Below, piece after piece: positions 15,019 to 64,000 of a stretch of DNA of 64,000 nt. Numbering within the stretch: the stretch's first letter is position 1; each line of letters opens with the position of its first letter. The translations under genes were made by a program, and so were the position numbers. The DNA is from Hahella chejuensis KCTC 2396 (GTDB lineage: Bacteria > Pseudomonadota > Gammaproteobacteria > Pseudomonadales > Oleiphilaceae): contig NC_007645.1 of NCBI RefSeq assembly GCF_000012985.1, positions 3,006,501 to 3,070,500 of the forward strand, given 5' to 3'. The notes under the pieces were generated by a model, which saw nothing but the letters and a program-made list of their open reading frames with translations, was not told the DNA's origin and ran no database searches.

Positions 15019-15037
15019 GCATTGCGAATAACCCCCG

Positions 15038-15955
15038 TCACCCATAACTCAACGCAGAAAACAATTCCCTTCCCATGTCGTCTGACGGGCGGCGGCCGTG
15101 CATCATGCGTTTGTTGTTGAGGACGGCGATGTCGCCGTCGCGCCAGGGGATGTCGCGGGTGTGGAGGTCGTACAGGGATTTGAGTTCTCCCATCAGCCAG
15201 TGGGGGATGGGGGAGCCGTCGTCCATGGTGATGGTCTGGCCGGGGTAGGGGCCGGTGAGGCTGTTGGCCAGGGCGCGGTGACCGCCGGGCAGCTGGTTGT
15301 AGACGTAGGTGGCGTAGCTAAAGTCGAGCTGGTTGTCCTCGGTCAGCTCTATTCGCACTCCTTCAAGGCCGCTGAATAACTTTTCCAGGTGGTCGCGGTT
15401 GATCTCCTCCACCGGTATGTCTTCGTCGATCATGAAGGCCACGAATACTTTCCAGAACATTTCCGGGAACAGGCGATGATAGACAAAGCGCACGTGCTCA
15501 ATGAAGGTGCGGCTGGTTTCACTCAGGGCGCGCCAGATCTCCAGACCGTCGCAATAGGTGGTCTGGCCGCGGTCGCCGGCGGCGCGACGGCAGTAGAACC
15601 AGATGTAGTCCGGGGTGAACGGGCTGTTGCTGTGCTCGCTGTGCAGCTCGATGCCCGGCGTTCCCGACAGCACCCGCTGTACGCGACGGTCGTAGGATTG
15701 CCGGGTGGGGTCGAGTATCAGGCGTGAACTGAATTTCTCCACAAAATCGCCGAAACGTTCCGGCGTCGCCTCAAAACCGCGAAACAGCGCCACGCCTTTC
15801 TGTTCCATGGCGAAGTGAAAGTCGTCGGCGCTCACGCTGTCGAGCGTCTCTCCCTCCTGCGCCTGCACCAGATGGCCGGTGAAGGCGAGGAGGCGCTCCG
15901 GCGCTTTGCGCCGGGCGGTGGGAATGCGATGAGTGATGGGTGAGGTTGTGGTCAT
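15038..15955 (-). CDS. TauD/SyrP-like Fe(II)/2-oxoglutarate dioxygenase of the cluster
   Basis: 305 residues of the TauD/TfdA fold. The family binds Fe(II) and 2-oxoglutarate and hydroxylates unactivated carbons; SyrP-type members hydroxylate amino acids held on NRPS carrier proteins. Visible facial triad: His-x-Glu in IELHSEHSNSPF (around residue 103, the Glu variant as in SyrP) and the distal His in NNKRMMHGRRP (around residue 284). The 2-oxoglutarate-binding Arg lies in MGRELFSALSYG. It overlaps the upstream TE-bearing NRPS gene by 4 bases (ATGA), so it belongs to the assembly-line transcript and is its last gene. The substrate is not evident; a residue on a late module (Tyr or Gln) is plausible. 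Confidence 0.85.
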   Translation of the reverse strand: MTTTSPITHRIPTARRKAPERLLAFTGHLVQAQEGETLDSVSADDFHFAMEQKGVALFRGFEATPERFGDFVEKFSSRLILDPTRQSYDRRVQRVLSGTPGIELHSEHSNSPFTPDYIWFYCRRAAGDRGQTTYCDGLEIWRALSETSRTFIEHVRFVYHRLFPEMFWKVFVAFMIDEDIPVEEINRDHLEKLFSGLEGVRIELTEDNQLDFSYATYVYNQLPGGHRALANSLTGPYPGQTITMDDGSPIPHWLMGELKSLYDLHTRDIPWRDGDIAVLNNKRMMHGRRPSDDMGRELFSALSYG

Positions 15956-18900
15956 GCTGTCTGCTCCTTCCGTTCCGTCGTCATGGGAGTAAAGGACTCC
16001 GCCTGCTGGAGATGCGCCAGCAAACGAGTGGCCAACGTTTCAACATTGGGCGGTTGCACCATGGTCTGGTGCCGACCAGGAACGTACTCCACCTCCACGC
16101 CCCGTTGCGCCCACTTGGACCAGCCCAGACTGGGATCGTCCGGGCAAACGGACTTCGCCAACTGCTCCTCCCCAAGCGGACGGAACAGGGTGATCTTGCC
16201 GTTGTAAGGCTGCGGTTGATAAGACTCCACCGCATGATAGTTCAACTTGCTCACCTGCAGAATGCGACGCGCCTGCTCCAGGCTGAATCCCTGGGGCAGG
16301 GCCTGGGCCTCCCGGGTGGCTTGAATGGCCGTCTGCAATTGTTCTTCCGTGGACAGGCCGCGCAAGGTATCCGGGTCCACATCCGCGATGCCGCCAAGCA
16401 GCGAACTGATGATCTCCGCATCGTCATGGGCGGCGAACCCGCCGTCGAAGACATCCGGCGCATAAGCGTCCAGCAGACCCAGGAAGGCGATTTCCCTGCC
16501 TCGCCCCTGCAACACGCGGGCGACCTCGAACACCGCCACGCCGCCGAAGGACCATCCCGCCAGATAAAACGGACCGGCAGGCTGACGTTCGCACAATGCG
16601 TTGGCGTAGTACGCCGCCATGTCCGGGATGTTGTCGAAAGGGAGCTGCTCCGGCTCCACGCCTCGGGCCTGTACGCCGATAAAGGGGCGCGCTTCGCCCA
16701 GGCTGGCGGCCAGATGATAGTAGCAAAGCACCGTGGCGCCGGTGGGATGCACGCAGAACAGCGGCGGATGTTCGCCGCGAGCGGTCAGCGTCACCAAAGG
16801 CGACCAGTCCTCAGGATGGGCTTTGCGGGCGCTGCGCACCTGTTCCGCCAGTTTCTCCACGGTCGGATGCTGGAACAGCGTGGTCAGTGGCAGGGCGATA
16901 TGAAACTCCTGCTGAATCGCGCTCATCAGCCGCACCGCCAACAGAGAAAAACCGCCCAATGCGAAAAAGTTATCCGTCACACCCACCGGACTGCGCTCCA
17001 GCAAACGCTCCCATATACGCGCTACGCCCAGCTCCACGTCGTCCCGAGGAGCGACGAACTCATTGTGCGACACGGCGGCGTGCATGCCCTCCAGCGCGGC
17101 GTAATCCGTCTTGCCGGAGGGCGTCAGCGGCAGCGCATCAAGGGGGACCAGCAGATCCGGCAGCATGTATGGCGGTAAACGCTCGCGCAGATAAGTCAGG
17201 ATCGCCTCCGCCTGCAACTCGCCTTTGTTCGCTGTTCGCGCCAACACCACATAAGCCAGCAGACGGCGATCCGCCTCCTCGCCCTGGGCGACGACCGCGG
17301 CTTGCTGGATATCCTCCCGGCTCAGCAATTGGGTTTCCAGTTCGCCGGCTTCAATGCGGAAACCGCGCACTTTGAACTGGCGATCTGTTCTGCCGAGCAA
17401 ATCCAATGCGCCGTCCGGACGCCAGCGGGCGCGGTCGCCGCTGCGGTAATAGCGCCGCGGCGCGGATAACCCGGGCAGCGCCAGCTCCACGAAACGGGTG
17501 GCGTTGAGTTCAGGACGGTTATGGTAGCCCAGGGCCAGACCGACGCCGGAGATCAATAGCTCGCCAGGCGCGCCTACCGGGCAGGGACGGTCCAGCGCGT
17601 CGACCACGTGGCACTGCATATTCTGAATCGGCTGACCCACATCCGGCGGCAGACCACTGTACACCACCTCGCCGAGGGTGGCGCAGACCGTCGCCTCCGT
17701 GGGACCGTAAGCATTGATCATCAGGCGGCCCTTGCTCCATTTCGGGACCAGGTCCGCCGGACAGGGCTCCCCAGCCACCACCAGGGTTTGCAAACCGGGG
17801 GCCGAATCCTCCGGCAACAGCGCCAGGGAGGACGGCGTCAGGGTGATGTGGGTGATCTCAAACTCCTGCAGCGCCTGGGCCAGATCAGGACCGGGCATGA
17901 TGCGGTCGCGGGGCGCCAGAATCAGACGGGCGCCGGCGCACAGGGCGGTGAAGATTTCCGACACCGCGGCGTCGAAACTGAATGACGCCACCTGCAACAC
18001 CCGACTGTCGCTGCGCAACCTGAACGCCTTGATCTGCGCCTCCAGCATGTTGATCAAGCCGCTATGATGCAGCAAGACGCCTTTGGGCGCGCCGGTGGAG
18101 CCGGAGGTATAGATCATGTAGGCGGCGGCGTCAGGGGCGGGGGCGTAATCCAGCGGCCGTGACGACTGTTGGCGCCAGGAGGTGATGTCGTCGAGGTAAA
18201 TGACGGAACCGCCGCGATCCTCCAGCACCTCAATGAAGGGCGCATCCACGTCCGGGTGTTCCACCAGGAACAGGCGACAGCCAGAGTCCTCCGCCATGTA
18301 GCGTAGACGTTCCGCCGGATAATCCGGGTCCAGAGGCAGAAACGCGCCGCCCGCCTTCAACGCCGCCAGCAGCGCGATCACCATATCGCAGCCGGGACGG
18401 CAGCAAACGCCCACCAGTCCGCCTTTCTCCAGGCCGGAGACCTGCAGCTCCCGCGCCAGTTGGTTCGATTGTTCGTCCAGCATGCGGTAGCACAACTGCA
18501 ACCCCGGCGTCTGCAGCGCAATATGCCCGCCATAGCGGGACACCACCTCGCGGAACTGGCTCAGCACATTGGCGTTGGCGTGCGTTGCTTGCTCAGTCAG
18601 GTTGAAACTGGCCAGCAGACTCCAGTCGCGGGTGGTGAGCATGTCCAGTTGTTTCACCGGCAGATCCGGCTGCTCCAAGGCCATGGTCAACACTTGCTGC
18701 AGATGCTCGGCGAACAGCTCGATGCGATGCAGATGAAAGCGCGATTCGTTGTACGCGATAGAGAAACTGAGCGTACCAGTCCGTTGCAGCAGACTCACAG
18801 TGACGTCGTTATTAAGATTGGCGGGCAGCTCGCCATGCAAGGCGTCGTAATGGGCCGCCACGTCGAACAGCGGGCAATGGTGGCGCCAGGACAGACCAAA

Positions 18901-19398
18901 GTCCTCCGCCATCTCCCGCCATTGGTAGTGTTGATGCTGGTAAGCGTCCAGCAGCTGCGAGCGGGTTTGCAGCAGCAGGGCCTTGAACGACGCCTCGGGA
19001 TCAATACTGTTGATGATGGGCAGGGCGTTGATAAAGCCCGGCTCGGCGCCGTTTTCCTCCCTTCGCGCCGGCGAGCCGGTGACCAGGGTTTCGACGCCGC
19101 CGTTGTCGCCGTCGGAAGAGAAGGCCTGATTGTAACGTTGCAGGCATAACTGCACGCCGGCGGTGGCGATCGTGTAAATAAGAAAGCGCCCGCCTTTGCT
19201 GACCTTCATGATGAGGTCGTAAAGATGGCTGTCCAGCGTCAGGCCGTATATCTGGTAGGACTTGGAGCCTTTATGGGGAAGGTCGTAATCGCGGGGCAGG
19301 TTGCTGGGGCCGATGGCCTTGGTCAGGGATTTGCGCCAGTAATCCCTTGCCGCGAGAGAGTTTGCGTCAAGCAGAAAACCGCTTTCTTGTTGCGCCAT
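15952..19398 (-). CDS. Terminal NRPS module: half-C, A(Tyr), PCP, thioesterase
   Basis: 1148 residues. The N-terminus (to about 270) is only the second lobe of a condensation domain, beginning at ARDYWRKSL and lacking HHxxxDG, so it cannot condense. The adenylation domain (core YTSGSTGAPKG near 433) has the pocket code DASTVAAVCK as I align it, which is exactly a published tyrosine code. PCP serine is in DNFFALGGFSLLA (about 819). The thioesterase has GWSFGG (Ser about 948), Asp in LLDAY, and His in VPGRHQTMV (about 1111). The upstream protein at 21322 ends in a complete C domain that can supply the missing condensation. Good ribosome site (AAGGAAAG). It would add Tyr and release the chain by hydrolysis or cyclisation. 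Confidence 0.92.
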   Translation of the reverse strand: MAQQESGFLLDANSLAARDYWRKSLTKAIGPSNLPRDYDLPHKGSKSYQIYGLTLDSHLYDLIMKVSKGGRFLIYTIATAGVQLCLQRYNQAFSSDGDNGGVETLVTGSPARREENGAEPGFINALPIINSIDPEASFKALLLQTRSQLLDAYQHQHYQWREMAEDFGLSWRHHCPLFDVAAHYDALHGELPANLNNDVTVSLLQRTGTLSFSIAYNESRFHLHRIELFAEHLQQVLTMALEQPDLPVKQLDMLTTRDWSLLASFNLTEQATHANANVLSQFREVVSRYGGHIALQTPGLQLCYRMLDEQSNQLARELQVSGLEKGGLVGVCCRPGCDMVIALLAALKAGGAFLPLDPDYPAERLRYMAEDSGCRLFLVEHPDVDAPFIEVLEDRGGSVIYLDDITSWRQQSSRPLDYAPAPDAAAYMIYTSGSTGAPKGVLLHHSGLINMLEAQIKAFRLRSDSRVLQVASFSFDAAVSEIFTALCAGARLILAPRDRIMPGPDLAQALQEFEITHITLTPSSLALLPEDSAPGLQTLVVAGEPCPADLVPKWSKGRLMINAYGPTEATVCATLGEVVYSGLPPDVGQPIQNMQCHVVDALDRPCPVGAPGELLISGVGLALGYHNRPELNATRFVELALPGLSAPRRYYRSGDRARWRPDGALDLLGRTDRQFKVRGFRIEAGELETQLLSREDIQQAAVVAQGEEADRRLLAYVVLARTANKGELQAEAILTYLRERLPPYMLPDLLVPLDALPLTPSGKTDYAALEGMHAAVSHNEFVAPRDDVELGVARIWERLLERSPVGVTDNFFALGGFSLLAVRLMSAIQQEFHIALPLTTLFQHPTVEKLAEQVRSARKAHPEDWSPLVTLTARGEHPPLFCVHPTGATVLCYYHLAASLGEARPFIGVQARGVEPEQLPFDNIPDMAAYYANALCERQPAGPFYLAGWSFGGVAVFEVARVLQGRGREIAFLGLLDAYAPDVFDGGFAAHDDAEIISSLLGGIADVDPDTLRGLSTEEQLQTAIQATREAQALPQGFSLEQARRILQVSKLNYHAVESYQPQPYNGKITLFRPLGEEQLAKSVCPDDPSLGWSKWAQRGVEVEYVPGRHQTMVQPPNVETLATRLLAHLQQAESFTPMTTERKEQTA

Positions 19399-19468
19399 GG
19401 TCTTTCCTTATTTTCCTTGTTCCGTTCATAGGGTCGTTATTGTTATGGTCGCCGACCGCGCAATGGCT

Positions 19469-21160
19469 TTAGAAAGCGAAGCTTTCCAAAGCGTCCTGGC
19501 TGACTGTCTCATTACTTCTATGATGGATATTCGCCATAAAGGCGTCATCCGTGGTTTTTTCCAACAATAGAGTGCGCATGCGCTGCAATATCGGCGCGGG
19601 AATCGCCTTCAGCGTAGGGTCCGCCATCTGCGCCTTGATCGTGGAATTGAACAGGGCCACGTAGTCGATCACCTGTTGTCGGGTATAGCCGCGACGCTGC
19701 AGATAGAAAGTAGACCATTGTTCGAAACCGTGCTGGGGCAACCAGGTGGAATTGCGAATATCGAAGAACAAACGCTCCACCCAGTCGCAGGCGGCTTCGC
19801 TGGTCATGGTGCGATGTCGCCAGGAAAAACCGTTGCCCTCCAGATCGTACTCCTGACGGTTTTTCCAAATGGGCGTCAGCGGATCGCAGTACCACAACTG
19901 GGCGCGATAAAAGTCCGGCTTGCTCTGCTCGATCAACGACTGGGTCTCCCGAATGGTGTCTTCAGTTTCGCCGGGAAAACCGACGATCAAGCTGGCGTGG
20001 GCGGAAATGCCGGCTGCCTGCAATTGCGGAATGGCCTCGGCGAAATTGCGCCGACGCGCGGTTTTGTTCATGTTCTTGAGCATGGCGTCGCTGCCGGATT
20101 CAATGCCCAGAAACACGCCTTCGCAGCCGGCTTCGCGCATCAACTGAATGGTTTCATAATCGCCCTGATCGCTGCGATAGAACGAATTCCAGCGAAAGCC
20201 GTACTGCTTGCGGATCATCAAACGCAGAATTTCCTTGAAGCGTTTTTTCGGCACGTTGAAGGTGTCGTCGAGAAAGGTGAGAGTGTCCACATTGCCCAGC
20301 GCGGCGATGCGGTCCAGCTCCTGCTCCACCAGGTCCGGCGCCAGGGTCTTGTAAGCGCCCGCCCGTTGCGGAAAGCCGCAGAACGCGCAGCTGTAGGGAC
20401 AGGATTTGGCGGTGCGCAGAGAAATGAACTGGGACAGCTGCTCCGGCGGGAACAGACCGTAGTCGATGGGGTTTTCCTCCAGGGGATTGTACTCCGTCTC
20501 CACCGGGGTGCGGGAAAAGGGCCGCAACAGACTTTTGGGATCGCGAATGGCCAGGTTGGCGACGCCGTTCAGGGGCTCTCCCTTTTGCAGCGCGCTGATG
20601 ATGTGGGCCAGCGCCTGCTCGCCTTCAGAACTGATCACGTAGGTGTCCGCCCCCAGATACTCGAACAGACTGGCCAGCTCATCTGCGTTGCGCACCTCGG
20701 CCTGTCCGGAGATATAGGGACCGCCGACGATGATATGGGCGTCGCTGTGCTCGCGCACGAACTTGATCACTTCGATCATGGGCTGGGGCGACACATACAG
20801 GGTAGTAGTGACCGCCACCGTGCGCACCTGGCCACTGCGCAGGAGGCGGCGCATCTCCTCTTTTTCCTGTTGGAACAGGTTGATCCAGTCCACGGTGAAG
20901 CCGCGCCGGCGTAGAAAAGACGCCAGATAGCTCACCGCCGGCCAGAGAAAGTCGAGGTTGTTGAACTGCCGGTGGGACTGGCCGGCCTCGTCATAAATAT
21001 GATTAATCAGGTCCAGCGCGGTATACGGCTGTCCCTGATGCTCCACAAACGCCAGCCGCAGGTCGCGCCAGGCTCCGCCGTGATTATCGACGGAACGCAC
21101 CATCTCCACGTGTTCGGGAGTGGGCGGCATATTGGTTCCGACAATCAGGCAATCAATCAT
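19469..21160 (-). CDS. B12-type radical SAM methyltransferase, PhpK-like
   Basis: About 563 residues. The start at 21160 (MIDCLIVG) is preferred to the one 12 codons earlier because AAGGAAGG stands 10 bases before it. The N-terminal half is a cobalamin-binding-like domain (VRTVAVTTTLYVSPQPMIEV, HIIVGGPYISGQ). The radical SAM core has the iron-sulfur motif CPYSCAFC (around residue 260). The opening residues (MIDCLIVGTN, MVRSVDNHGGAWRDLRLAF) match, as I recall, the PhpK family, whose namesake methylates phosphorus in phosalacine synthesis. Homologues in NRPS loci have largely unproven substrates, probably unactivated carbon. It lies between two NRPS genes in the same direction, so methylation of the peptide is the likely role. 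Confidence 0.85.
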   Translation of the reverse strand: MIDCLIVGTNMPPTPEHVEMVRSVDNHGGAWRDLRLAFVEHQGQPYTALDLINHIYDEAGQSHRQFNNLDFLWPAVSYLASFLRRRGFTVDWINLFQQEKEEMRRLLRSGQVRTVAVTTTLYVSPQPMIEVIKFVREHSDAHIIVGGPYISGQAEVRNADELASLFEYLGADTYVISSEGEQALAHIISALQKGEPLNGVANLAIRDPKSLLRPFSRTPVETEYNPLEENPIDYGLFPPEQLSQFISLRTAKSCPYSCAFCGFPQRAGAYKTLAPDLVEQELDRIAALGNVDTLTFLDDTFNVPKKRFKEILRLMIRKQYGFRWNSFYRSDQGDYETIQLMREAGCEGVFLGIESGSDAMLKNMNKTARRRNFAEAIPQLQAAGISAHASLIVGFPGETEDTIRETQSLIEQSKPDFYRAQLWYCDPLTPIWKNRQEYDLEGNGFSWRHRTMTSEAACDWVERLFFDIRNSTWLPQHGFEQWSTFYLQRRGYTRQQVIDYVALFNSTIKAQMADPTLKAIPAPILQRMRTLLLEKTTDDAFMANIHHRSNETVSQDALESFAF

Positions 21161-21196
21161 ATCCGCTTTTCCTTCCTTGTTAGCCCGCCGCGTCAC

Positions 21197-21321: not shown

Positions 21322-24300
21322 TTAAAAATCAAACTCCTCCGCCGCGTCCGCTTCACCGGTAGCGGGTCTGCCGTCGGCGCCGGCCAGGGACAGCAGGCTG
21401 TCGCCGGGACGTTGCGCGGCGGCGTCCAGCAGGTGCTGATAGTGCTCCTGCAGGGCGGCGATCTCCTCCGCCGTGAAACGCTCACGGTCATATTCGAAAA
21501 CAATGCGCACCTGCTCCGGTTGCGCGCTGACGGACAACACCAGATCGTATTTGGCGGAGCCGCGTTGTCCCGGCAGATAGGACACTTCCAGGCCGTCCAG
21601 GAAGACCGCCCTGGGCGGCGCGGCGGCCGCCGGCGCATCGCCGTTCTGAAAGTCGAACACCACCTGAAAGATGGGTTGGCGACCCGCCACCCTGGGAGAT
21701 TGCAGCGAACGCACCAGCAGATCGAAAGGCAGTTCCTGATGCGCCTGCGCCTGCAGGGTTTTGTCCCGCGCCTGAGCCAGCAGGTCCAGAAAGCTGGCGC
21801 TGGCGTCGAGACGCAACCGGATCGGCAGTGAGTTGACGAAGAAGCCGATCAGGCTCTCCAGCTCTTGCCGGTTGCGGTTGGCGACCGTGGTTCCCACCAC
21901 GATGTCGGACTGTCCGCTGAGGCGCTGCAGTAGTGCGGCGAAGGCGGCGAGCATGGTCATGTAAAGGGAGCTGCCCTGCTGGCGATTGAACTCCTGTAGC
22001 GCGCTCAGGGTCGACGCCGGCAGATCCTGCACCGCCAGGGCGCACAAGCCTGCGGCCTCGCTGTGAGGGCGACGCGGCAGGCGGATAGCCTCCGGCGCGT
22101 CCTGCAGTTCCTGTCGCCAGTAGTCCAGATGCTGTTGCACCCGTTGCGGAGTGAGCAGGCGACGCTGCCAGCAGGCGAAGTCGGCATACTGCAGTTGCAT
22201 GGGCGGCAGATCGGCGGCGGAGCCGGTGCGTCGGCTGTGATAGAACGCCTGTAACTCGCGCACGAACACGCCGTTGGACCAGCCGTCGAAGATAATGTGG
22301 TGCATGGTGGCCAGCAGCACGTGACGTTGCTCCTGCAATTTCACCAGACGGATACGCAACAGGCGGTCGCTCTCCAGATCGAAGGCATAGTTGGCTTCCT
22401 GACGCGCCAGTTCGCTGACTTCCGCAACTTTCTCCGGCTCTGGCAGCGCGGACAGATCGAAGAATCGCCAATCCGGCGCGGTGTCGCTGTGGATCTCCTG
22501 CACCGGCGCGTCTCCCGCCATATGAAAGCGGGTGCGCAGTATTTCGTGGCGGGCGATGATGTCGCGGAAACTGTCGTGCAGCGCCCGAGCGTCCAGGGGA
22601 CCATTCAGCTCCATAGCGATGGGCATGTTGTAACCCGCCGCGGCGCCTTCCAGCTGGTGCAGAAACCACAACCGCTCCTGGGCGAAGGAAAGCGGCGGCG
22701 CGGCGGGCCGGATCTGGGCGCATAGTCGTTCGCCGTCATCGGCATTGGCGGGAGCGAGCGCCGCCAGTCTTTCCGCCAGCCCGGCGATGCTGGGGTTCTC
22801 AAAAACGTCCCGGACCGAGGCGTCCACCCCCAGGCGCGCGCGAATGCGGTTCAGCAGGCGGGTGACCAGCAGACTGTGGCCGCCCAGTTCAAAGAAGTTG
22901 GCGTGAATATCAATATGCGGCAGCCCCAGCAGCTCGCTCCACATGTCATGCAGACTGCGCTCCAGGGCGCTGCGGGGCTCCGCCAGCAATTCCGGAACAT
23001 CGTTCAGGGCGTCCGGGGCGGGCAGGGCGCGGCGGTTGATCTTGCCGCTGACAGTGACCGGCATTTTTTCCAGGGTGAGGATGCGGGCGGGCGCCATATA
23101 GTCGGGCAGACGTTTGCGCAGCCAGGCGCGCAGGTCGGCGACGTCGAATCCGGCGCTGTGACGGGGCTCTATATAGGCCAGCAGGCGCATGCCGGCGCCG
23201 TCGTCCCGAGCCACCACCGCGGCGGCCTTAACGTCGTCATGGCTGTTCAGCACCGCCTCCACTTCGCCGGGCTCCACCCGGAAACCGCGGATTTTCACCT
23301 GCTCGTCAATGCGCCCCAGATACAGGAACTCGCCTTGCGCGGTGCGTCGCGCCAGATCCCCGGTGCGGTATAGACGCTGACTGATCTCGCCATGGGAACT
23401 CATGATGGTGGTGGTGATAAAACGCTCCGAGGTGAGGTCGTCGCGTCCGACATAGCCCTGGGCGAGACACACGCCGCCGATGTACAGTTCGCCGGGCGCG
23501 CCGGCGGGCGCAGGCTGTCCCAGCTGGTTGAAGATATGCAGTTGTACGCCGCACAGAGGCGCGCCGATGCCAGGCAGGACGGGCCAGCGATCAGGTTGAT
23601 CCTCCAGCTGCAACGCGCTCACCACATGGGCTTCCGTGGGGCCGTAATGGTTGTGCAGACGGCAATGGGGGCGCTCCCGGAAAAAGCGGCGCACTGGCGC
23701 AGTGATCTGCAACTGCTCGCCGGCGGTGACCACATCGCACAACTTGTCGCTGGCGACGGGGCTTCGCTCCGGCTGGTTCTCAGCCATGGTCTCCGCCAGT
23801 TGCTGCAAGGCGACGAAGGGTAAAAACAGGCGCTCTACGCCTTGCTCCCGGATAAAGGCCATCAGGGCGCGCGGGTCTTGCCGCAAACTGGGCGGACACA
23901 GCACCAGCGAACCGCCGCAGGCCAGGGTGGCGGCGAACTCTTGAAAGCAGACGTCGAAGCCGACGGCGGCGAACTGTAAAGTGCGCGCCGGTGCGCTCAG
24001 GCGGGGGTGTTGACGGTGCCAGGCCACCAGGTTGCTCAGTGCGCGCTGCGGCATGGCGACGCCTTTGGGGACGCCGGTGCTGCCGGATGTATACAAAATG
24101 TAAGCGATGCAGTCCTGGTCCGGCAGGGGCGGCGGCTCCGCGCGGCGGCGGGACAGATGCGCCCACAATTGCGGCAGCGGCGCGATGGCGCAGGGCGCGT
24201 CATGCCAGCCATGCTGCGCATTCGCCGCCACCAGCAGGCGCGGAGCGGCGCTTTCCACCATTTGCCGCACCCGGGTCAGAGGAAACTCCGGGTCGATAGG

Positions 24301-32200: not shown

Positions 32201-32575
32201 CATCAGCGGCTCCCGCTGTAGATCGAAGCTGCGCTGGCGGTCTTCCGTCTGCGCCTGCCGGATCAGTTCCTCCTGAAAATCCGGGGACGCCTCGCGTAAA
32301 TCGTTGTAATGGAATTCGCCGACCCGTTGATGCAGCACCGCCTGCAGGGGGCGGGACACTTTTTCGGCGATGAACTGGACGCGCAGAATGTCGTGGCGCT
32401 GGAACAGCCGCTCCCAGGCCTGCTCCAGCAGATCCACCCGCAGCGCGCCGCGCAGCCGGTACAGCGCCTGTTCGTGATACACCGGCGCGTCGGGATGCAG
32501 CAGACTTTGATAGAGCATGCCTTCCTGCATGGGGGATAAGGGATACAGGTCCTTTAGATTTTCCTTTTTGATCAT
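29297..32575 (-). CDS. NRPS module, C(D-accepting)-A(Leu-like)-PCP
   Basis: 1092 residues. The N-terminus KENLKDLYPLSPMQEGMLYQ combines a short docking helix with the opening typical of condensation domains that take a D-configured donor, agreeing with the epimerase at the end of the preceding protein. C active site LHHILMDGWC (about 145). Adenylation core FTSGSTGEPKG (about 623). Pocket code read as DAWFQGNVCK, eight of ten to the leucine code DAWFLGNVVK, with a polar Gln at position 299, so a hydrophobic residue like Leu is likely but not certain. PCP serine in HFLELGGHSLSA (about 1008). The last 40 residues are a disordered linker. Start overlaps the preceding stop as ATGA. Confidence 0.92.
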   Translation of the reverse strand: MIKKENLKDLYPLSPMQEGMLYQSLLHPDAPVYHEQALYRLRGALRVDLLEQAWERLFQRHDILRVQFIAEKVSRPLQAVLHQRVGEFHYNDLREASPDFQEELIRQAQTEDRQRSFDLQREPLMRMRLLQLSDDRFALLWSLHHILMDGWCLGLLLRDFTLIYDALREGRPVDLPAPPPYSRYIQWLERQDQIRARDYWRAQLQDSHQAAQIPRQQTLAPASAGKRTLTHTLPAPLSERVRQAAADWGLTPGALLQAAWGALLARYNDCDDVAFGTLVSGRPAELPGAMEMVGVFINTLPLRLRIGPDDTLRELAKTTQMRLLEAESRQYLPLSDIQSLCPLGKDLITHLFAFENYPAPAHPDGAFRDAIQVESISKHEDIPYDFGVTATPEHGPEGATLVMRYLYNPAQFESAFVERLSGHYERLLRQGLGAAGNIRPIALQQIDLLDNAERDRLHAFRGEDAPLPSCDSYLDLFEQAVAAAPDSIAVEDGARRISYRELDERVNALAALLQKRYDVGVEDRIGVVLPRSAALLIAELAAGKAGAAFVPVDPDYPPERRLRTFQQAQCKLVIGDAAEAALWREHSQIPFLNLDAVDPHSRRAQAPERACGLRSLAYVIFTSGSTGEPKGVMLEHVGLINLIQWSRRQFNIQAGSRTTLLASPAFDASVWESLPSLCAGATIVITPDALRRDVGPLCEFLHEQRIDISFLPPALCEEACVNYPHLLQNIVLQSGGDTLKGIRNGGASDRIKVSNNYGPSEFSVCAASCYLAPQEPSPYPIGKPIANAEVLILDSQRRLAPLGAAGEIALSGPSLARGYWGRADLTAAHFVAHPLRPGERVYLTGDKGRWREDGNLDFLGRIDDQLSVRGHRVEPAEIEHLLSRHERVRAAAVAATRGADGHTLLAAFVTPRSADDSPLDLNDIRQWLARRAPAYMTPAILRERDSLPLNANGKLDRQAIRREAEQLRAEAPYEAPQTDTEKLVADIWSQVLDHRPIGRNDHFLELGGHSLSATRALSQLRGRLRRDLSLALLFDKPVLKDLAAAIDAPGAAAPSAPESGIRRADRSRYAVAAHRSEIQNPETQNPAAAESS

Positions 32576-48224: not shown

Positions 48225-48246
48225 GGTCGTATTCTTTTTCTTCCGT

Positions 48247-51822: not shown

Positions 51823-51850
51823 CCAACACTCCCTTTGTCTGTCGTTGTCT

Positions 51851-56587: not shown

Positions 56588-59500
56588 TGGAACGCAGACT
56601 CCTTTGCGCTTCTCTGGCGTTGCGGCGACCCGCCAGACGGTTATTCTTGCGACGGGGAGACTGCGACAGCCCGTCGTCGTCCGGGGCGGCGCTGAGCAGA
56701 CGCGCGGTGGCGGCGATAGTGGGATTGGCGAACAGATCCACCATCGCCACCGGCCGTCCGAAGGCGTCGCTCAGTTGGCGTTGCACCTGGGCCAGCAGCA
56801 GCGAGTGTCCGCCGATGTCGAAAAAGTTGTCGTCACGGCCCACACGAGAAAGATTGAGGCAGTGACGCCAGATATCCGCGACGCGCCGCTCCACGTCGGA
56901 TACCGGCGCGCCTCCGTCCATGGCGGCGACGCCTTCCGGCTCAGGCAGCGCGCGGCGGTCCAGCTTGCCGCTGGCGTTCACAGGCAGGCGCGGCAACGTC
57001 AGGATATAGGCGGGGACCATATACTCCGGCAGCCGGCTCCGTAAGTGGTTTTGCAGATCCTGGACGGTGGGCGGCGGGTCGGCGTCCTGGCGATACACCA
57101 CATAAGCCGCCAGTTGCTGGCGTTGCGGGAACAGGGCGACGGCGCATTCCGCGATGGCGTCATGAGCGCTTAATTGACTCTCAATGTCGCCCAGCTCCAC
57201 CCGGTATCCGCGAATTTTCACCTGGGCGTCCCGGCGCCCCAGATAGTGCAGCTGGCGGTCGTCGAGCCAGCAGCCCAGATCGCCGGTGCGGTATGCGCGG
57301 GATTCATTCAATGGAGGTAGATCGACGAATTTCTCCGCCTCCAGTTCCGGACGCTGCAGATAGCCGCGGCTCACGCAGTCGCCGGCGATCACAATCTCGC
57401 CGACGGCGCCCGCTGGTGACGGTTGTCCCCAGGGATCGAGCACGTACAGGCGGGCGCCGCGTAGAGGACGACCCAGCGGCGCGGTGGCGGTTTCCGGCAG
57501 GGCGTCTCGGGTCAGGACGCAGGCGCTGACATCGACGCAACACTCGGTAGGGCCGTAAACGTTGATCAATGTGGCGCAGTCATTGGCGCGATAGAACGCG
57601 TTCACCAGCTCCATCGATAGCGCCTCGCCGCCAACCAGGAGCCAGTCCGGCGTCAACTGGCCGGCCTGATCCGCGCCGGTCAGCATGCTCAGCAGACTGG
57701 GGGTGCAGTCTGCGACGCGCACCTGCTCCGCGGCGAGTAAAGCGGAGAGTCGGGCGGGGTCGCGACGGCTGTCGGCGTCCACGATCACCAGCTGATGTCC
57801 CAGCAGCAACGCGGCGAAGATCTGCTGCACGGAGGCGTCGAACACGGTGTTGGCGCACAGGGCCACGGCGATAGGCTGATCATAGCGATGATAAACCTGA
57901 TCCCACAGGGCGTTCGCCAGATTGAGGACGCTGCGGTGCTCCACCAGCGTTCCCTTGGGCGCGCCGGTGGAGCCGGAGGTGTATATCAGATAGGCGAGAC
58001 TGTCCGGGCCGATGGCGACTTCAGGTTCCTCCGCGGTGGCGGTGACGTCCTCCACGCATACCCATTGTGCGGCCCCCAGTCCCTCCAGCGCCGCCAGAGT
58101 CGGCATGATGGCGCGATCCGTGACCAGGGCGGCGACGCAGGCGTCCTGCAGTTGCGCGCTCAGTCGGGCGGGCGGGTGCGTCGGGTCCAGCGGCAGGTAG
58201 CCGCAGCCGCTTTTGAGTATGCCCAGCAGGCCGACGATCAGATTCACATTGCGGGACACGCAGAGTCCCACGGCGGCGCCGGCGGGCGTTCCTTGCTCGC
58301 GCAGGCAGGCGGCGACGCCATTGGCGCGGCGATTGAGTTCGGCGTAGCTGAGCCGGCGGGCGTTGTCTGCGACGGCGATGCGCTCGGGGTGCGCCTGGAC
58401 CATATCGAGAAACGCCCTGACCAGATCAGGCGCATTGATCCTGGCGGCATCGGGCGCGTTCTGACTGGCGTTTTGCTCCACCTGACGGCGCTCGTCCTGA
58501 TCGTACCAGGGCAGGTTGACCAATGGCCGGGCGAGCTGTTCGCCGGCGCTGAGCGCGGACAGAACATGACGATAGCGCCGCACCAGTCTTTCGATGCTGG
58601 CGCGACGCCAGCGTCTGGCGTCGTATTTGAGGAAGCCCTGCAGGCCGTTGGCGCTGTCGGCGATTTCCAGGGACAGTTCAAACTGGCCTTCCTGCTGCGG
58701 CATGGGATAGGGCGACAGTTGCAGATCGCCCCAGCTCACCCGCAGGTTATCGTCCGCGGCCAGGAACAGATCCAGGGTGGCGTTGTCGGTTTGCGGCTTC
58801 TGCATGATGAAGGTGGTCTTCACCAGAGACTGCCCCCTGCCGTTACGCTGCAGGCCCAATCGCTCCACCAGCAACGGCAGGGGATAGTCGCCGTGAGCGA
58901 GTGCGTCGAGCAAGGTGTGTTGCTGATTGCGCAGGTAGGCGTCCAGGGACAGCTCGGGGTCGAAGCGGCTGCTTACTGGGGCCAGATTCACAAAGTCTCC
59001 CACCAACGCCTGAAATTCGGGACGGCTGCGACCGTGCACCGGCGTCGCCACGATGATGCGCTGCTGTCCGCACAGACGATGCAGCAGCAACTGGTACGCC
59101 GCCAGCATCAGACTGAACAGCGTGGTTCCCCGTTGCTTGGCAAGAGCGCGCAGCGCCCCATCCAGTTGCGGAGAGAGCTGGAAGTGGACGGATTCGCCCA
59201 CCGCCTTCTGCACTGCGCCGCTACGGGATATATCCGCCGGGAGGTTCAGTTCGAAGTCGGCGTCCGCCAGGGCGTCGCGCCAGTAATGCCAGAGTTCTTC
59301 GCCGCGTTCCGTATCCAGCATGGCGTTTTGCCAGCGCACGAAATCCACCTGCGAATGAGACAACGCCGGCAGCGCGGCCTGCTCCGGGGCGAGGCCTGCG
59401 CGGCGCGCCTCATACAGGGCCTTGAGTTCATCCAGGATCACCCACAGCGACCATCCGTCGCAGACCGCGTGATGGGCGGTCAGCAGCAGCACGCTGTCCT

Positions 59501-62500
59501 GAGCGGTGACGAACGCGCAGGCGCGCAGCAAGGGCGCGCGGGACAATTCGAACGGCGCTTGATAGGCGCGCCGCACTTCCCGGTACAGCGCGTTGGCGTC
59601 AAGGTCATGGGCGTTCACGACTTGTAAAGGGATCGCGATATCGTCCCGAGCCTGCTGGCGTGGCTTGCTGTCCACCTGAATCGCCGTGCGCAACGCCGGA
59701 TGACGGCGGGCGATCTGGTTCAAAGCGGCCTGCAGGAAAGCGTGATCCTGCTCGCCCGCAAAGCCGTCGCGCAGGCGCGCAGCGAAGGACACATGATAGG
59801 CCGGACTGCCTGGGTCCAGTTGATGCAGGAACCATTGCGCCTGCTGGTTGTAGGACAGCTCCCAGGGCGCGCCGCAATCCAGGGGCGCGGGCAGAGCGTC
59901 TGTCGTGACGGAGGCGCCGTTTTCCGCGTTCTGGGCGGTGAGTTTCTCCGCGACGCTTGCAGCGAGTTCCCCCAGGCCATTGCTCTTGAGGATATCGACG
60001 ATGCTGACGCTGGCGCTCAGGTTTTTCTCGATGCGATTGCGCAGCTCCACCGCCATCAGAGAATCCAGCCCGTATTGCGTTAAAGGCGCGGCAGGGTCGA
60101 TATTGTCTGGATTCAGGCGTAATACAGCGGCGGCCTGGGCGGTTAACCAGCGCAGCAGCGCCGCCTGGCGTTGTTCCAGAGGCTGATCCAGCCAATCCGG
60201 GGACGCTGGGTTTTCCTCCGAGGCGCTACTGGCTGGCGCGTTAGTGTGAACTGGCTTGAGTCCTTGTAAGTACAGGCTGCCGTCAGCGTAAGCCGCCAAA
60301 TTGGGATCTTCCGGAGTGACGCCGATGACGGCCTGGTTCGCCGCCAGCAGCGCAGGCGTCAGCGCCACACAGGCGTCTGGGCTCAGGCCTGCGCCAGGGT
60401 CTGGCGTCAGACTCGCAATAGCTGCGTTGTTATCCCTTTGCGCCCGCGCCATCAAACCGATGTCGCGGAACGGACCCCATTGTACGGACACCGCCGGCTC
60501 TCCCAGGGCGCGCCGCTGCGCGGCCAGTCCGTCCAGCCAGGCGTTGGCGGCGGCGTAGGCCGCCAACCGCGGCGAGGGCAGTGCGGCGGAGGTGGAGGAG
60601 AACAGCAACAGGAAATCCAGGGAACCGACAGGGAAACAGCGACGCAGCGTTTCGCCGCCGCAGACTTTGGCGGCGATTTCCGCTCGCAGCGTCTCCCGGT
60701 CCAGCGTCTCGGCGGCCATGGCGTGGGCGACGCCGGCGGCGTGCAATACGCCGCGAATAGCGGGCTGCTGCTGTTGGTACTGGCGCAGCCAATGGACGCA
60801 GGCTGCGCTGTCGCTGAGATCTATGGCGGCGATGGTCACGTGCGCGCCCAGCGCTTCGATCTCGCGAAGCGCGGCGACGCGTCGCCCGTCGCGGGAATCC
60901 GACGACAATGGCGCCCACTCGGAGCGCGGCGGCAGACCGCTGCGGCCCATCAGCACCAGCCGTCTGGCCCCTTGTTGCGCCAGCCAGCGCGCCCAGCGCA
61001 GCCCCAAATCTCCCAGACCGCCGGTGATGAGGTAGCTGGCGTCGGCGCGCAGGGAAAAAGTCTGGCTTGCCGATGCGGTAAGCCTGGTGCGACTGAGTGT
61101 TGCGCGATGAATTGCGCCGTGGCGAATGGCGAACTGAGCGTCAGCGCCGTGGTTCTGTCGCAAAATGGCGTCCAGCAGCGGTTGCTGTTCTCCATCCGTC
61201 GCCTGTAAATCCAGATCCACCATGCCGCCCCAATAATTGGCCTTCTCCACCGCCAATGCGCGAGCGAAACCCCACAGCGCGGCGGCGTAAGGACAAACGG
61301 CGGCGTCCGCCTCTTCTGCAGAGCAGGCGCGACGGGTCAGCAACCACAGCCGGGGCGCGTCCTCGTCGTCTTCCTGTGCGGCGGCCAGGGCGTCAAGAAT
61401 GGCCTCAAGCTGTTCCACCAGGTTGTCCAGCAACTCGTCCGGTTCGGCGGAGTCTTCGGGAGCGTCCGGCGCGATGCAGAGCAGGGCGGAGCCATAGCGG
61501 CGCAGGGTTAATTGGGCTGATCTGTTTGAGAAGACTGCGTCAGTTTCTGAATCCTTCTGCAGGCTTTCTCTGAGGGACGCCTCCGGCGCTATTTCAGTCC
61601 GCTCCCAAACCTGCTCAAAGGGGAATCCTTGCTCCGCCGTGGGAGGCTGTCCCGCCGCGGCGGCGTCGAGGAAGCTGAAGCGCAAGCCTTCTACCTCTGC
61701 GAGCAGTTCGCCGTGGTTGTCGAAAATGGACAGCGATCCGCTCAGCAAGTGGTCGGATTGCGCTGTCTGCGGGGTGAGGCGGGCGCGCACCCAGTAGCTA
61801 TATTTGCTGAAATTGCGCAAAAATCGCAGACTTTGCACCGAATGTCCGACAAATGCGCCTTTTTCGTCGCCTCCCAGCGCCGCCAGGGTCTGTGCGCAGG
61901 CGTCCAACACTCCGGGGTGAGTGCGGTAAGCGTCAAGCTGCGCGGCGGTCTCTTCAGGGGCCTGTATCAGCGCCCAGGCTTCCTGTTGCGAGGACCAGAT
62001 GCGTTGAATGCCCTGAAACTGGCCGGACCAGTCATTGCCCCGTTGACGCCATTGCGCGTAGAACTGCTCCCCGGACAGGCTGTTTTCATATTGCGCCAGA
62101 GCGGTTTCGGTGGGGAGCGGGTATTGCTCCGCCTGATCCGCCGCTGCGTCCTGACGACTGACTTCGCAGCTGGCGTGGAGTCGCCAGGGCGCTTCGCTCT
62201 CGTTAAGACCGTCACGGCGGGCGAAGATTTTGATCTGCGCGGCGTTAGCGCCTGATTGAATAAATTGCGTCTGCAGTCGCCAGTGGTCCAGTTCGTCGAC
62301 GACTAAAGGCGCATGAAACTGCATGTTGCGGCAGCGCGCGCCGGCGTCCGGCCAGTGTCGCGCTGCGGCGGACAGGGCCATGTCGATGTAGGCGGCGCCG
62401 GGAAACACGACGGCGCCGCTGACTTTGTGTCCCGCCAGATAGGCGTGCGCGCCGGCGTCGAGATGCTGGTCATACAGAGCCCCCGCCGGTTCCGCTAACG

Positions 62501-64000
62501 CGGTGGACCGTCCCAGTAGCGGATGGCCGTCGGCGACCCGGTCGGCGCTTGCCTGGGGTTCCTGGTAGTTTTGCGGCCAGTAGCGATGACGCTGGAAGGG
62601 ATAGCTGGGCAGCGCGGCGTCCCGCAGGCGACGGCGTCCCGGCAGCGCGCGCCAGTCCGGCGCGCCGCCATGGCAATACACGCGCCCCAAGGCGTTGAGC
62701 ACGGAGGCGTGTTCGTCTTCACCGTAGCGAATGCTGTGAATCCAGGCGGCTTTGCTGTCCGGCAGGCAACGTTTGCCCATGCCGCACAGACTGGCGCCGG
62801 GGCCGATTTCCACAAACAGGTCCACGTGGCGATCCGCGGCGGTGAGCATGCTCTTGCGGAACTCCACCGCATTCATGGTGTGTCGCAACCAGTAATCGTG
62901 TTCGTAATCCTCCGCTTCGATAAAGTCGCCGGTGACGTTGGATATCAAAGGAAATTGCAGCTGTCCCAGGGGCGTGGATTCGGTCACCTTACGCAGATCC
63001 GGCAGGATGGGGGCCATCATCGGCGAATGAAAGGCGTGGGAAACCTGTACGGGCTGGAAGCGAATGTCCTGCCGGGACAACAGAGGGCGTATCTGCGCCA
63101 TGGCTTCGCCGCGGCCGCTGATCACGGTGAGGTCCGGGCCATTGTCCGCCGCCACGGCCAGGGCGGCGCCAGCGTCCTGTAGCAGCACCTCGACTTTATC
63201 CCGGGGCGCGAACACCGCGAGCATCTCTCCGGCGGGCAGGGATTGCATCAGTTCGCCGCGCCGCAACACCAGTTTCATGCCCTGTTCCAGACTGAACAGA
63301 CCCGCGGCGTGGGCGGCGGCGTATTCGCCTACGCTGTGCCCCAACGCCAATTGCGGCTGCACGCCCCAGGACATCCACAGCCGCGCCAGCGCGGCTTCAC
63401 AGGCGAACAGGGCGGGCTGGGTAAAGCGGGTCTGATGAATGCCGGAATCCGGGTCGGGATTGAACATCAGCGTCAGCAGCGATTGCCCCAATAATGGCGC
63501 AGCCACCGCTTCGCAACGGTCCAGGGTTGCCCGCACCACCGGTTCGGTTTCATACAGACGCTGCATCATGCCGGGATACTGCGCGCCCTGACCGGAGAAC
63601 AGGAACACTACCACCGGACCCTGTCTGGCCACGCCGAGACTCAGATTCGGCGTCTCCTGGCCCTGAAACGTCTTGAGCGTTTCGGCGGCGTCCTGCGCGC
63701 TTTGTGCGCTGAGAGTCAGGCGATAGGGCAGCGCCTCCCGGGAGGTGTTCAGGGTATGGCAATAATCCGCCCAGCCTACGCTGTTCGCCAGTTCTGCGTT
63801 GGCGTGCAGGGTCGTCAGATGTTGGCTATGACGGCGCGCCAGCGCCTGTAGCGCTTGCGCGTCCGCGGCGGACAGAGTCAGCAGCCGATAAGGCGCGTCG
63901 CCCGGTTGCGGAGCGGTGGCCGCTGCAACGTCGGAAGCGGACTCGGCAGGCGCATCCGCCATTCCCTGCAGAACCACGTGGGCGTTGGAGCCGCTGAAAC
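56574..64000 (-). CDS. Hybrid PKS-NRPS, KS(end)-AT-DH-KR-ACP-C-A(Gln)-PCP, 5' end beyond window
   Basis: At the right edge the frame is open and reads FSGSNAHVVLQGM, the end of a ketosynthase, so the gene starts outside. Residues are counted from the GTG at 63977, which is not the true start. AT: LALGHSVGEYAAA (about 211), VSHAFHSPMM (malonyl type). DH: AGHKVSGAVVFPG (about 516, the HxxxGxxxxP motif) with HPGVLDA. KR: LITGGLGDLG (about 986) and FSSTSAALPSPRLAAYAAAN (about 1129). ACP YGLDSLMAVEL (about 1304). C: AHHAVCDGWS (about 1504). A: YTSGSTGAPKG (about 2000), pocket code DAQDLGVVDK, the glutamine code. PCP in NFFDIGGHSLLL (about 2392). It should make an enoyl ketide and attach Gln. The basic tail (RRKNNRLAGRRNAREAQR) may dock to the next PKS. 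Confidence 0.94.
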   Translation of the reverse strand, partial: FSGSNAHVVLQGMADAPAESASDVAAATAPQPGDAPYRLLTLSAADAQALQALARRHSQHLTTLHANAELANSVGWADYCHTLNTSREALPYRLTLSAQSAQDAAETLKTFQGQETPNLSLGVARQGPVVVFLFSGQGAQYPGMMQRLYETEPVVRATLDRCEAVAAPLLGQSLLTLMFNPDPDSGIHQTRFTQPALFACEAALARLWMSWGVQPQLALGHSVGEYAAAHAAGLFSLEQGMKLVLRRGELMQSLPAGEMLAVFAPRDKVEVLLQDAGAALAVAADNGPDLTVISGRGEAMAQIRPLLSRQDIRFQPVQVSHAFHSPMMAPILPDLRKVTESTPLGQLQFPLISNVTGDFIEAEDYEHDYWLRHTMNAVEFRKSMLTAADRHVDLFVEIGPGASLCGMGKRCLPDSKAAWIHSIRYGEDEHASVLNALGRVYCHGGAPDWRALPGRRRLRDAALPSYPFQRHRYWPQNYQEPQASADRVADGHPLLGRSTALAEPAGALYDQHLDAGAHAYLAGHKVSGAVVFPGAAYIDMALSAAARHWPDAGARCRNMQFHAPLVVDELDHWRLQTQFIQSGANAAQIKIFARRDGLNESEAPWRLHASCEVSRQDAAADQAEQYPLPTETALAQYENSLSGEQFYAQWRQRGNDWSGQFQGIQRIWSSQQEAWALIQAPEETAAQLDAYRTHPGVLDACAQTLAALGGDEKGAFVGHSVQSLRFLRNFSKYSYWVRARLTPQTAQSDHLLSGSLSIFDNHGELLAEVEGLRFSFLDAAAAGQPPTAEQGFPFEQVWERTEIAPEASLRESLQKDSETDAVFSNRSAQLTLRRYGSALLCIAPDAPEDSAEPDELLDNLVEQLEAILDALAAAQEDDEDAPRLWLLTRRACSAEEADAAVCPYAAALWGFARALAVEKANYWGGMVDLDLQATDGEQQPLLDAILRQNHGADAQFAIRHGAIHRATLSRTRLTASASQTFSLRADASYLITGGLGDLGLRWARWLAQQGARRLVLMGRSGLPPRSEWAPLSSDSRDGRRVAALREIEALGAHVTIAAIDLSDSAACVHWLRQYQQQQPAIRGVLHAAGVAHAMAAETLDRETLRAEIAAKVCGGETLRRCFPVGSLDFLLLFSSTSAALPSPRLAAYAAANAWLDGLAAQRRALGEPAVSVQWGPFRDIGLMARAQRDNNAAIASLTPDPGAGLSPDACVALTPALLAANQAVIGVTPEDPNLAAYADGSLYLQGLKPVHTNAPASSASEENPASPDWLDQPLEQRQAALLRWLTAQAAAVLRLNPDNIDPAAPLTQYGLDSLMAVELRNRIEKNLSASVSIVDILKSNGLGELAASVAEKLTAQNAENGASVTTDALPAPLDCGAPWELSYNQQAQWFLHQLDPGSPAYHVSFAARLRDGFAGEQDHAFLQAALNQIARRHPALRTAIQVDSKPRQQARDDIAIPLQVVNAHDLDANALYREVRRAYQAPFELSRAPLLRACAFVTAQDSVLLLTAHHAVCDGWSLWVILDELKALYEARRAGLAPEQAALPALSHSQVDFVRWQNAMLDTERGEELWHYWRDALADADFELNLPADISRSGAVQKAVGESVHFQLSPQLDGALRALAKQRGTTLFSLMLAAYQLLLHRLCGQQRIIVATPVHGRSRPEFQALVGDFVNLAPVSSRFDPELSLDAYLRNQQHTLLDALAHGDYPLPLLVERLGLQRNGRGQSLVKTTFIMQKPQTDNATLDLFLAADDNLRVSWGDLQLSPYPMPQQEGQFELSLEIADSANGLQGFLKYDARRWRRASIERLVRRYRHVLSALSAGEQLARPLVNLPWYDQDERRQVEQNASQNAPDAARINAPDLVRAFLDMVQAHPERIAVADNARRLSYAELNRRANGVAACLREQGTPAGAAVGLCVSRNVNLIVGLLGILKSGCGYLPLDPTHPPARLSAQLQDACVAALVTDRAIMPTLAALEGLGAAQWVCVEDVTATAEEPEVAIGPDSLAYLIYTSGSTGAPKGTLVEHRSVLNLANALWDQVYHRYDQPIAVALCANTVFDASVQQIFAALLLGHQLVIVDADSRRDPARLSALLAAEQVRVADCTPSLLSMLTGADQAGQLTPDWLLVGGEALSMELVNAFYRANDCATLINVYGPTECCVDVSACVLTRDALPETATAPLGRPLRGARLYVLDPWGQPSPAGAVGEIVIAGDCVSRGYLQRPELEAEKFVDLPPLNESRAYRTGDLGCWLDDRQLHYLGRRDAQVKIRGYRVELGDIESQLSAHDAIAECAVALFPQRQQLAAYVVYRQDADPPPTVQDLQNHLRSRLPEYMVPAYILTLPRLPVNASGKLDRRALPEPEGVAAMDGGAPVSDVERRVADIWRHCLNLSRVGRDDNFFDIGGHSLLLAQVQRQLSDAFGRPVAMVDLFANPTIAATARLLSAAPDDDGLSQSPRRKNNRLAGRRNAREAQRSLRSNEQL

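Follow-up and report, generated by a model that had tools for sequence, protein, structure and literature searches.

How does a nonribosomal peptide synthetase (NRPS) finish its product when the last module contains no catalytic condensation (C) domain, and how might a stand-alone radical S-adenosylmethionine (SAM) enzyme find that one module? Both questions are raised by a polyketide synthase (PKS)–NRPS gene cluster of Hahella chejuensis KCTC 2396, analysed here in a 64,000-nucleotide stretch of its chromosome (the window; contig NC_007645.1, positions 3,006,501 to 3,070,500). The cluster comprises eleven genes, designated A to K, all on the minus strand. Its last module is encoded by gene J (15952..19398), which has the organisation half-C–adenylation (A, Tyr)–thiolation (T)–thioesterase (TE), where half-C denotes the C-terminal lobe (C-lobe) only of a C domain. 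The reading we favour, with a probability of roughly 60%, is that the cluster makes an uncharacterised lipopeptide, that its final module is split and that the J half-C serves as a non-catalytic docking receptor for the products of genes H and I, which carry similar aromatic tags at their C-termini.

The gene J half-C (18613..19398, minus strand) covers positions 179–450 of the 456 positions of the Pfam C-domain profile and lacks both the N-terminal lobe (N-lobe) and the HHxxxDG motif. Upstream, gene H (21322..29196, minus strand) encodes C-A(Ala)-T-C-A(Pro)-T-C, the third, C-terminal C domain being complete (HHIIFDG). The order is therefore the complete C domain that ends gene H, then gene I (19469..21196, minus strand), encoding a 575 amino acid cobalamin radical-SAM protein, then the half-C of gene J. 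A whole-genome Pfam scan of the host gave 27 C-domain matches, two of which start at the lobe border: the J half-C and one in a second NRPS cluster (at 2,075,026). Modelled alone with AlphaFold, residues 1–262 of the gene J protein have a mean predicted local distance difference test score (pLDDT) of 82.7 and a predicted template modelling score (pTM) of 0.85, and all 50 listed Foldseek matches of this model are NRPS C-family entries, X-domains included. Because the lone lobe is modelled with confidence and finds C-family folds, it has the appearance of one folded lobe and not of debris. It is not a condensation domain in the usual sense of two chloramphenicol acetyltransferase (CAT)-like lobes with HHxxxDG, nor an X-domain, which is two-lobed and sits before a TE; the half-C has one lobe and stands before an A domain. 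No TubC_N match, which would mark a receptor of the short linear motif–β-hairpin docking (SLiM-βHD) type, was found in gene J.

An insertion or frameshift artefact was considered and rejected because the arrangement is identical in Hahella sp. HN01 (94–98% identity over the pieces compared) and is also found in other phyla. The second Hahella NRPS cluster (G000:C1:2,068,121-2,080,251, or L088:6121-18251) encodes a half-C-A-T-C-T-TE protein, and its middle protein may itself open with a very diverged half-C.

To establish the wider distribution of this arrangement, the radical-SAM protein was aligned with one distant relative and the alignment used to scan a collection of species genomes. At least 428 stretches encode a relative; the best 80 were made into loci (given L numbers here) and domains were mapped in the first 18 listed (L008–L025). 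A gene for a half-C protein lies behind the radical-SAM gene in L010 (the near-identical HN01 locus), L011, L013, L015, L016, L017, L018 and L025, with three further genes intervening in L018; none was found in the examined stretches of L008, L009, L014 and L019–L024. Half-Cs behind radical-SAM genes are present in Alphaproteobacteria (there without a C-terminal C domain), Desulfobacterota, Myxococcota and Aminicenantes. In L010, L012, L013, L015, L016, L017 and L018 the protein encoded ahead of the radical-SAM gene closes with a complete C domain; in L025 the nearest upstream NRPS protein does so, two open reading frames (ORFs) lying between it and the radical-SAM gene. The point at which the half-C starts is constant across four phyla (positions 189–197 of the C profile), and identity to the J half-C outside Hahella is 19–30%. 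Related lobes appear to be fused to radical-SAM proteins too: weak half-C matches are found in such fusions in L012, and when the C-terminal extensions (222–279 residues) of the L012, L013, L015, L016 and L019 radical-SAM proteins are aligned jointly, they match the half-C profile (hhalign probability 96.2%, E 2.7e-9); taken singly, a clear match is seen in the two L012 proteins only.

The break at the border between the lobes would be expected if the half-C were one part of a split C domain whose N-lobe is supplied in trans. This we consider very improbable, and it was rejected because gene H closes with a complete C domain; a complete C-terminal C domain also precedes the half-C at most other loci, and no N-lobe-only protein is seen beside a half-C in the domain maps of L008–L025.

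Among the half-C modules next to radical-SAM genes, the A domain has a Tyr-like code in five of eight clusters (Hahella, L011, L013, L017 and L018), an Asp-like code in L016, a Gln-like code in L025 and an unclear one in L015. Another half-C module of L018, Leu-like in its code, carries a radical-SAM domain within its A domain. Interruptions of A domains by radical-SAM sequence are seen at L018:4325-9919, L017:2326-9981 and L017:11652-21623, and in the L018 insert a B12-binding domain follows the radical-SAM part.

Further surveys for half-Cs covered 140 genomes of the Enhygromyxa phylum, 369 gammaproteobacteria, 198 genomes of the Desulfosediminicola phylum and 398 Pseudomonadota, the loci of one survey covering a minority of its listed matches. 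The profile score alone does not separate half-C from full-length C domains across genomes, and N-terminal position was used as well. Leaving aside the Aminicenantes genome discussed below, the 113 C domains whose C-lobe is complete included one new genuine half-C (L116) and the known ones again (L091, L115, L147, L171 and L189); five candidates at a locus edge (L149, L155, L157, L160 and L161) were left uncounted. The survey also returned a truly broken C gene (L141/L146; L146:5527-12251), which, in contrast to the half-Cs, is interrupted by another ORF and changes frame.

The second component of the proposed system is the C-terminal tag. Gene H ends in EEFDF (21325..21339, minus strand) and gene I in ESFAF (19472..19486, minus strand), and similar C-termini recur at the other loci: EEFAF in L011, IQFDF and VEFQF in L013, EEFNL and EFNFQ in L016, IDFDI and IDFEL in L017, IDFKF, VDFDI and IDFDL in L018, and AEFDM and AGFDL in L025. 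The proteins that bear them ahead of a half-C are both proteins with a C-terminal C domain and radical-SAM enzymes. In L018, five consecutive tagged proteins precede a single half-C: an NRPS, three cobalamin radical-SAM enzymes and a U32-family protein. The last of these, a tagged member of the Peptidase_U32 family (L018:13556-14725), lies between the radical-SAM genes and the half-C NRPS gene.

At the 21 loci used to set a strict form of the tag, it is carried by 20 of the 37 ORFs that lie in runs ahead of a half-C and by 3 of the 143 remaining ORFs (odds ratio 55, p 1.2e-13), a test that is not independent because the pattern was derived from some of those proteins. Whole operons were counted, with gene I and the L015 NRPS (whose tag lies five residues from its end) scored as misses; the near-copy locus L010 was left out of this count and of the control with ordinary C domains. 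Two cases were seen after the tag had been noticed and before the strict pattern was written: in the second Hahella cluster a protein with a C-terminal C domain, ending EIEFEF, precedes the half-C protein with no radical-SAM gene between them, and in a gammaproteobacterium from the survey a stand-alone C domain ending IAEFSF precedes a half-C. A further case came to light after the pattern had been set: ~6.6 kb downstream of the tagged L025 NRPS, with other genes between, lies a half-C-A-T-E protein (E, epimerisation). In the control, drawn from other genomes, the upstream neighbours of proteins that open with an N-lobe-bearing C domain matched the strict pattern in 2 of 37 cases and a loose one in 3 of 37; one of the two strict matches precedes a C domain with MHQ in place of HH (L017).

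The largest sample comes from the metagenome-assembled genome of Candidatus Aminicenantes CS4-C025 (G378), the source of L017 and L018. This genome is very rich in NRPS genes: a first look with the half-C profile gave 423 candidates, and tagged radical-SAM proteins are numerous. Among the 150 candidates listed of these 423, 53 matches score 174–313 bits and ordinary C domains score at most 166 bits; 52 of the 53 above this gap were examined and at least 50 are N-terminal half-Cs (C384:12-623, at a contig start, L271, cut at an edge, and L270, which failed the filter for a missing N-lobe, were excluded). Three of these 50 had already contributed to the definition of the tag, and five of the other 47 have no upstream ORF of at least 200 amino acids, leaving 42 for the test. 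Of the 42 upstream proteins, 23 have a complete C domain at the C-terminus, 14 match the radical-SAM profile and the remaining five are of other kinds. The strict tag is present in 23 of the 42, compared with a mean of 1.9 and a maximum of 7 in 2000 shuffles of the last 12 residues and with 4 of 650 ORFs from other loci (Fisher p 1.2e-27). By class, it is carried by 13 of the 23 proteins with a C-terminal C domain, 10 of the 14 radical-SAM proteins and none of the five others. A loose pattern, chosen after the tails had been viewed, is matched by 33 of 42 (shuffle mean 7.9, maximum 17; background 66/650). Of the 23 C-terminal C domains encoded ahead of a half-C, 22 keep HHxxxD.

These results bear on an alternative reading, that the half-C is a decaying remnant left behind after the C domain moved upstream and that the tags are ordinary tails with no receptor. 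The low identity of half-Cs outside Hahella to the J half-C fits such decay, and the full-length L017 C domain with MHQ for HH, beside a tagged protein, is what an intermediate would look like. We nevertheless regard a remnant as unlikely, given a lobe that appears able to fold and starts at a constant position in four phyla, at least 50 N-terminal copies in G378 whose scores stand apart from those of ordinary C domains, half-C-like lobes fused to radical-SAM proteins, and a truly broken C gene that looks quite different.

What, then, might gene I do? Its product has a CxxxCxxC radical-SAM domain (cluster motif CPYSCAFC) together with a B12-binding domain, the latter match (30.1 bits) being under the Pfam cut-off of 32.1, and can be classed as a cobalamin radical-SAM protein; its best match in the genome collection is in Hahella sp. 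HN01 (98% identity). It scores 774.6 bits against TIGR04479 (the PhpK/BcpD family; curated cut-off 600), and the name that NCBI gives this family, P-methyltransferase, would make the product of the cluster a phosphinate peptide. All 17 members of the radical-SAM alignment match the same family, however, with E values of 1e-50 or better, and 16 of the 17, gene I included, lie near A domains, so that the family name appears to cover more than phosphinate chemistry. No phosphoenolpyruvate (PEP) mutase above cut-off was found in the host (best match 127.8 bits against 319.55, 0.24 Mb away), and one alone of 17 genomes (the host and 16 others) has one, on a contig other than that of L017 or L018. 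On this count a phosphinate peptide strikes us as extremely improbable; because the host has no PEP mutase above cut-off, C-methylation by gene I is judged more likely than P-methylation. Modelled with AlphaFold (pLDDT 78.7), the L013 homologue of gene I matches the folds of the solved cobalamin radical-SAM enzymes TsrM, MgmA, AprD4, OxsB, CysS and TokK, with C domains also matched lower in the list; these nearest structural relatives have other substrates and share a low 11–19% identity with the homologue. Separately, L020, L021 and L022 (Pelosinus, Spirochaetales) contain arrays of PhpK-type radical-SAM genes, and no NRPS domains were found by the profiles used in the stretches examined.

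Gene K (15038..15955, minus strand) encodes a TauD-family Fe/2-oxoglutarate oxygenase with HxE and HGR motifs. Interface domains, which are C-family domains of siderophore NRPSs, were reportedly linked to siderophore β-hydroxylases by Reitz in 2019. Since gene K directly follows gene J, the half-C might be a domain of this type that recruits the oxygenase, the tie between interface domains and β-hydroxylases being a known idea (antiSMASH 8; PMC12230676). The likeness is that of a C-family domain tied to a tailoring enzyme, but we think this explanation decidedly improbable: apart from L010, no TauD match was found in L008–L025 (with a one-sequence profile, in stretches of at most ~21 kb), and the gene K protein has no C-terminal tag.

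We return to the half-C as a docking receptor and to the simplest mechanism that would follow from it, a plug and socket. C-lobes normally pack against the A domain, and a half-C would keep this platform and leave the space of the N-lobe free. Gene J would retain the C-lobe ahead of its Tyr-loading A-T-TE as a non-catalytic receptor, and the catalytic C domain for the last module would be supplied by the C-terminus of gene H. The tags of H and I would bind the half-C itself, or a face that the half-C exposes, so that the half-C stays on its A domain and condensation and tailoring enzymes arrive in trans by means of like tails. With one receptor used in alternation, gene I could act on the residue carried by the J carrier protein, most likely by C-methylation, before or alternating with condensation by H, that is, whilst the residue is still carrier-bound and uncondensed. 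Tyr is a plausible substrate held by J. The half-C, the complete C domain that ends H, the tags and their joint recurrence are features of the sequences themselves; from these we infer the binding of tag to half-C, the order of events, the methyl transfer and Tyr as the residue methylated.

Several observations weigh against this. Sequence alone cannot establish contact between tag and half-C, and the AlphaFold model of the natural, tag-bearing L013 radical-SAM–half-C protein gives no support for a binding place because the tag is disordered in it (residues 770–794 are under pLDDT 50). The gene I tag itself fails the strict pattern by one letter (S for D/E/Q/G/A), and in G378 19 of the 42 proteins miss the strict pattern and nine the loose one. 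The 42 strong cases all come from one genome, also the source of L017 and L018, which helped to define the tag, and they may be paralogues and not independent events. Tags and half-Cs do not always coincide: the degenerate full-length C domain in L017 also lies behind a tagged protein, no half-C was found after the tagged L145 protein on the parts of the contig examined, and untagged proteins precede both the diverged half-C-like start at L088:9110 and the first L015 half-C (3648). L011 has no C-terminal C domain before its half-C, and half-C modules load residues besides Tyr, as their Asp-, Gln- and Leu-like codes indicate.

The remainder of the cluster supplies the context for the split module. 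It extends from window-equivalent position 67487 to 15038, beginning 3.5 kb past the window edge, where flanking sequence shows that gene A opens with a fatty-acid-activating domain (FAAL), an acyl carrier protein (ACP) and a ketosynthase (KS). Gene A (56574..64000 and on to window-equivalent 67487; 3637 amino acids) encodes FAAL-ACP-KS-AT-DH-KR-ACP-C-A(Gln)-T, where AT, DH and KR are acyltransferase, dehydratase and ketoreductase. It is followed by gene B (51851..56587; KS-AT-KR-ACP, a hydroxyketide module), gene C (48247..51822; TubC_N-C-A(Thr-like)-T), gene D (42351..48224; KS-AT-cMT-KR-ACP, with a C-methyltransferase, a methyl-hydroxyketide module), gene E (37459..42351; TubC_N-C-A(Gln)-T-E), gene F (32572..37200; C-A(Gln)-T-E) and gene G (29297..32575; C-A(Leu-like)-T), all likewise on the minus strand. 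Gene B ends in VEIEL and a TubC-type docking domain opens gene C. The C domain of gene E lacks its C1 motif, with GDAACNIP repeats where this would be; because the Pfam match of the HN01 counterpart is shortened similarly, the loss is probably not a sequencing error.

The cluster is thus a FAAL-primed colinear PKS–NRPS, with a FAAL-ACP loading unit, C/KS–A/AT–T modules and a TE at the end; a catalytic C domain is not present in cis in every extending NRPS module, gene J having the half-C only. An earlier sequence-only reading of this DNA had proposed a colinear line in one direction, and eight A domains and three KS-AT modules, all on the minus strand, bear this out, as do the three ketide units that it placed among the residues (genes A, B and D); the extending modules number 11, not the ten it gave. 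Its residue order of Gln, Thr-like, Gln, Gln, Leu-like, Ala, Pro and Tyr stands, since the A-domain pocket residues and the KS, AT, KR and DH motifs agree with it. Read from the motifs, the pocket residues are DAQDLGVVDK for each of the three Gln domains, DFWNCGFVWK (Thr-like), DAWFQGNVCK (Leu-like), DLFNNALTYK (Ala), DVQFVAHVVK (Pro) and DASTVAAVCK (Tyr); the assignments follow GrsA numbering and reference codes. Its claim of complete catalytic motifs is true of the PKS domains, where the KS active-site motifs, AT GHSxG with HAFH or GAFH, and the KR and DH motifs are all present, but not of gene J, which has no HHxxxDG, or of the C domain of gene E, which has no C1 motif. It had also assigned D-accepting C domains to the two modules after epimerases and an L-accepting type to the module after a non-epimerising one. 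The openings are indeed distinct, the C domains after both E domains (genes F and G) beginning PLTPVQEGMLF and PLSPMQEGMLY and the others LSFAQERLWFL or similar; gene E is an exception, and the D and L labels themselves are taken from sequence signatures.

The same reading had sought a loading module beyond position 64000 and thought the product lipopeptide-like. The module is there, as the FAAL-ACP-KS start of gene A, and because this missing start is a fatty-acid-activating domain, a lipopeptide is predicted, in the order fatty acyl – C2 – Gln – hydroxy-C2 – Thr-like – methyl-hydroxy-C2 – D-Gln – D-Gln – Leu – Ala – Pro – Tyr, with the TE of gene J expected to free the finished chain. For its suggested kinship with callipeltin and papuamide, we found nothing beyond a radical-SAM enzyme of methyl-transfer type and a TauD oxygenase. 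It had not mentioned the half-C, the C-terminal C domain of gene H or the C-terminal tag. No published product of the cluster was found in the literature searched. In the closest paper found, a Hahella mining study, as far as the available part of that paper goes, NRPS and PKS clusters were grouped by antiSMASH, and only prodiginines and chejuenolides are given as products of the strain, most other clusters being silent (PMC9030710). The G+C content of the cluster (61–66%) is above that of the first 16 kb of the window (48–57%), which suggests horizontal acquisition. Immediately downstream of the cluster, at window positions 8001–16000, G+C is ~48%, and several ORFs at 10584–14582 have no Pfam or NCBIfam match at the thresholds used.

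How does the proposed pairing compare with known systems? X-domains sit before the TE. In glycopeptide NRPSs they are C-family domains that recruit tailoring enzymes to the carrier-bound peptide (PMC11546977), a role akin to that proposed here, and X-domain structures are among the Foldseek matches of the J half-C; they are, however, two-lobed (PMC11546977), whereas the half-C is one lobe placed before A, with radical-SAM enzymes and C domains as its neighbours. In SLiM-βHD docking, of the TubC_N type, a short C-terminal peptide likewise meets an N-terminal receptor on the next subunit, a single SLiM can work with several partners, and oxidases and other enzymes also carry such motifs (PMC9113145). 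Genes C and E of the present cluster have TubC_N domains of this kind. The TubC_N receptor is about 50 residues, in contrast to the C-lobe of ~250 amino acids considered here; here C-terminal C domains and radical-SAM enzymes bear the tag, and the split falls between C and A. In communication-mediating (COM) helix-hand docking, a C-terminal donor peptide lies on strands inside a C domain, but it is received there by a complete C domain (SrfA-C; PMC9113145). DscE, from the discodermin pathway, provides a precedent for C-methylation by a cobalamin radical-SAM enzyme within an NRPS pathway; it methylated the finished peptide in vitro, and the available text mentions no half-C or tag (PMC12858407).

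In the accessible portions of the literature compared (docking reviews, antiSMASH 8, a survey of C subtypes, metallophore mining, DscE and the tomaymycin adaptor domain), no half-C paired with a tag of this kind was found, a search that left most subscription journals outside its reach and is thus no proof of novelty. The recurrence described above nevertheless suggests a plug-and-socket system that has so far gone unnoticed. Whether the half-C and the aromatic tag constitute an NRPS docking class of their own, the half-C being a generic socket before the A domain for enzymes as varied as condensation domains, several cobalamin radical-SAM proteins and a U32-type protein, we consider an evenly balanced question, and the same applies to the fuller picture of a class used once or twice per Hahella cluster and at least 50 times in G378, with radical chemistry taking place during assembly. 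Modules with a half-C may at present be annotated as having no C domain or a broken one, in which case product predictions would be wrong. If the binding is real, it would provide a sequence rule for recognising the NRPS modules that receive radical-SAM or other enzymes in trans, would account for how a stand-alone radical enzyme reaches one chosen module, and would offer a short, portable tag with which to steer tailoring enzymes to assembly lines.

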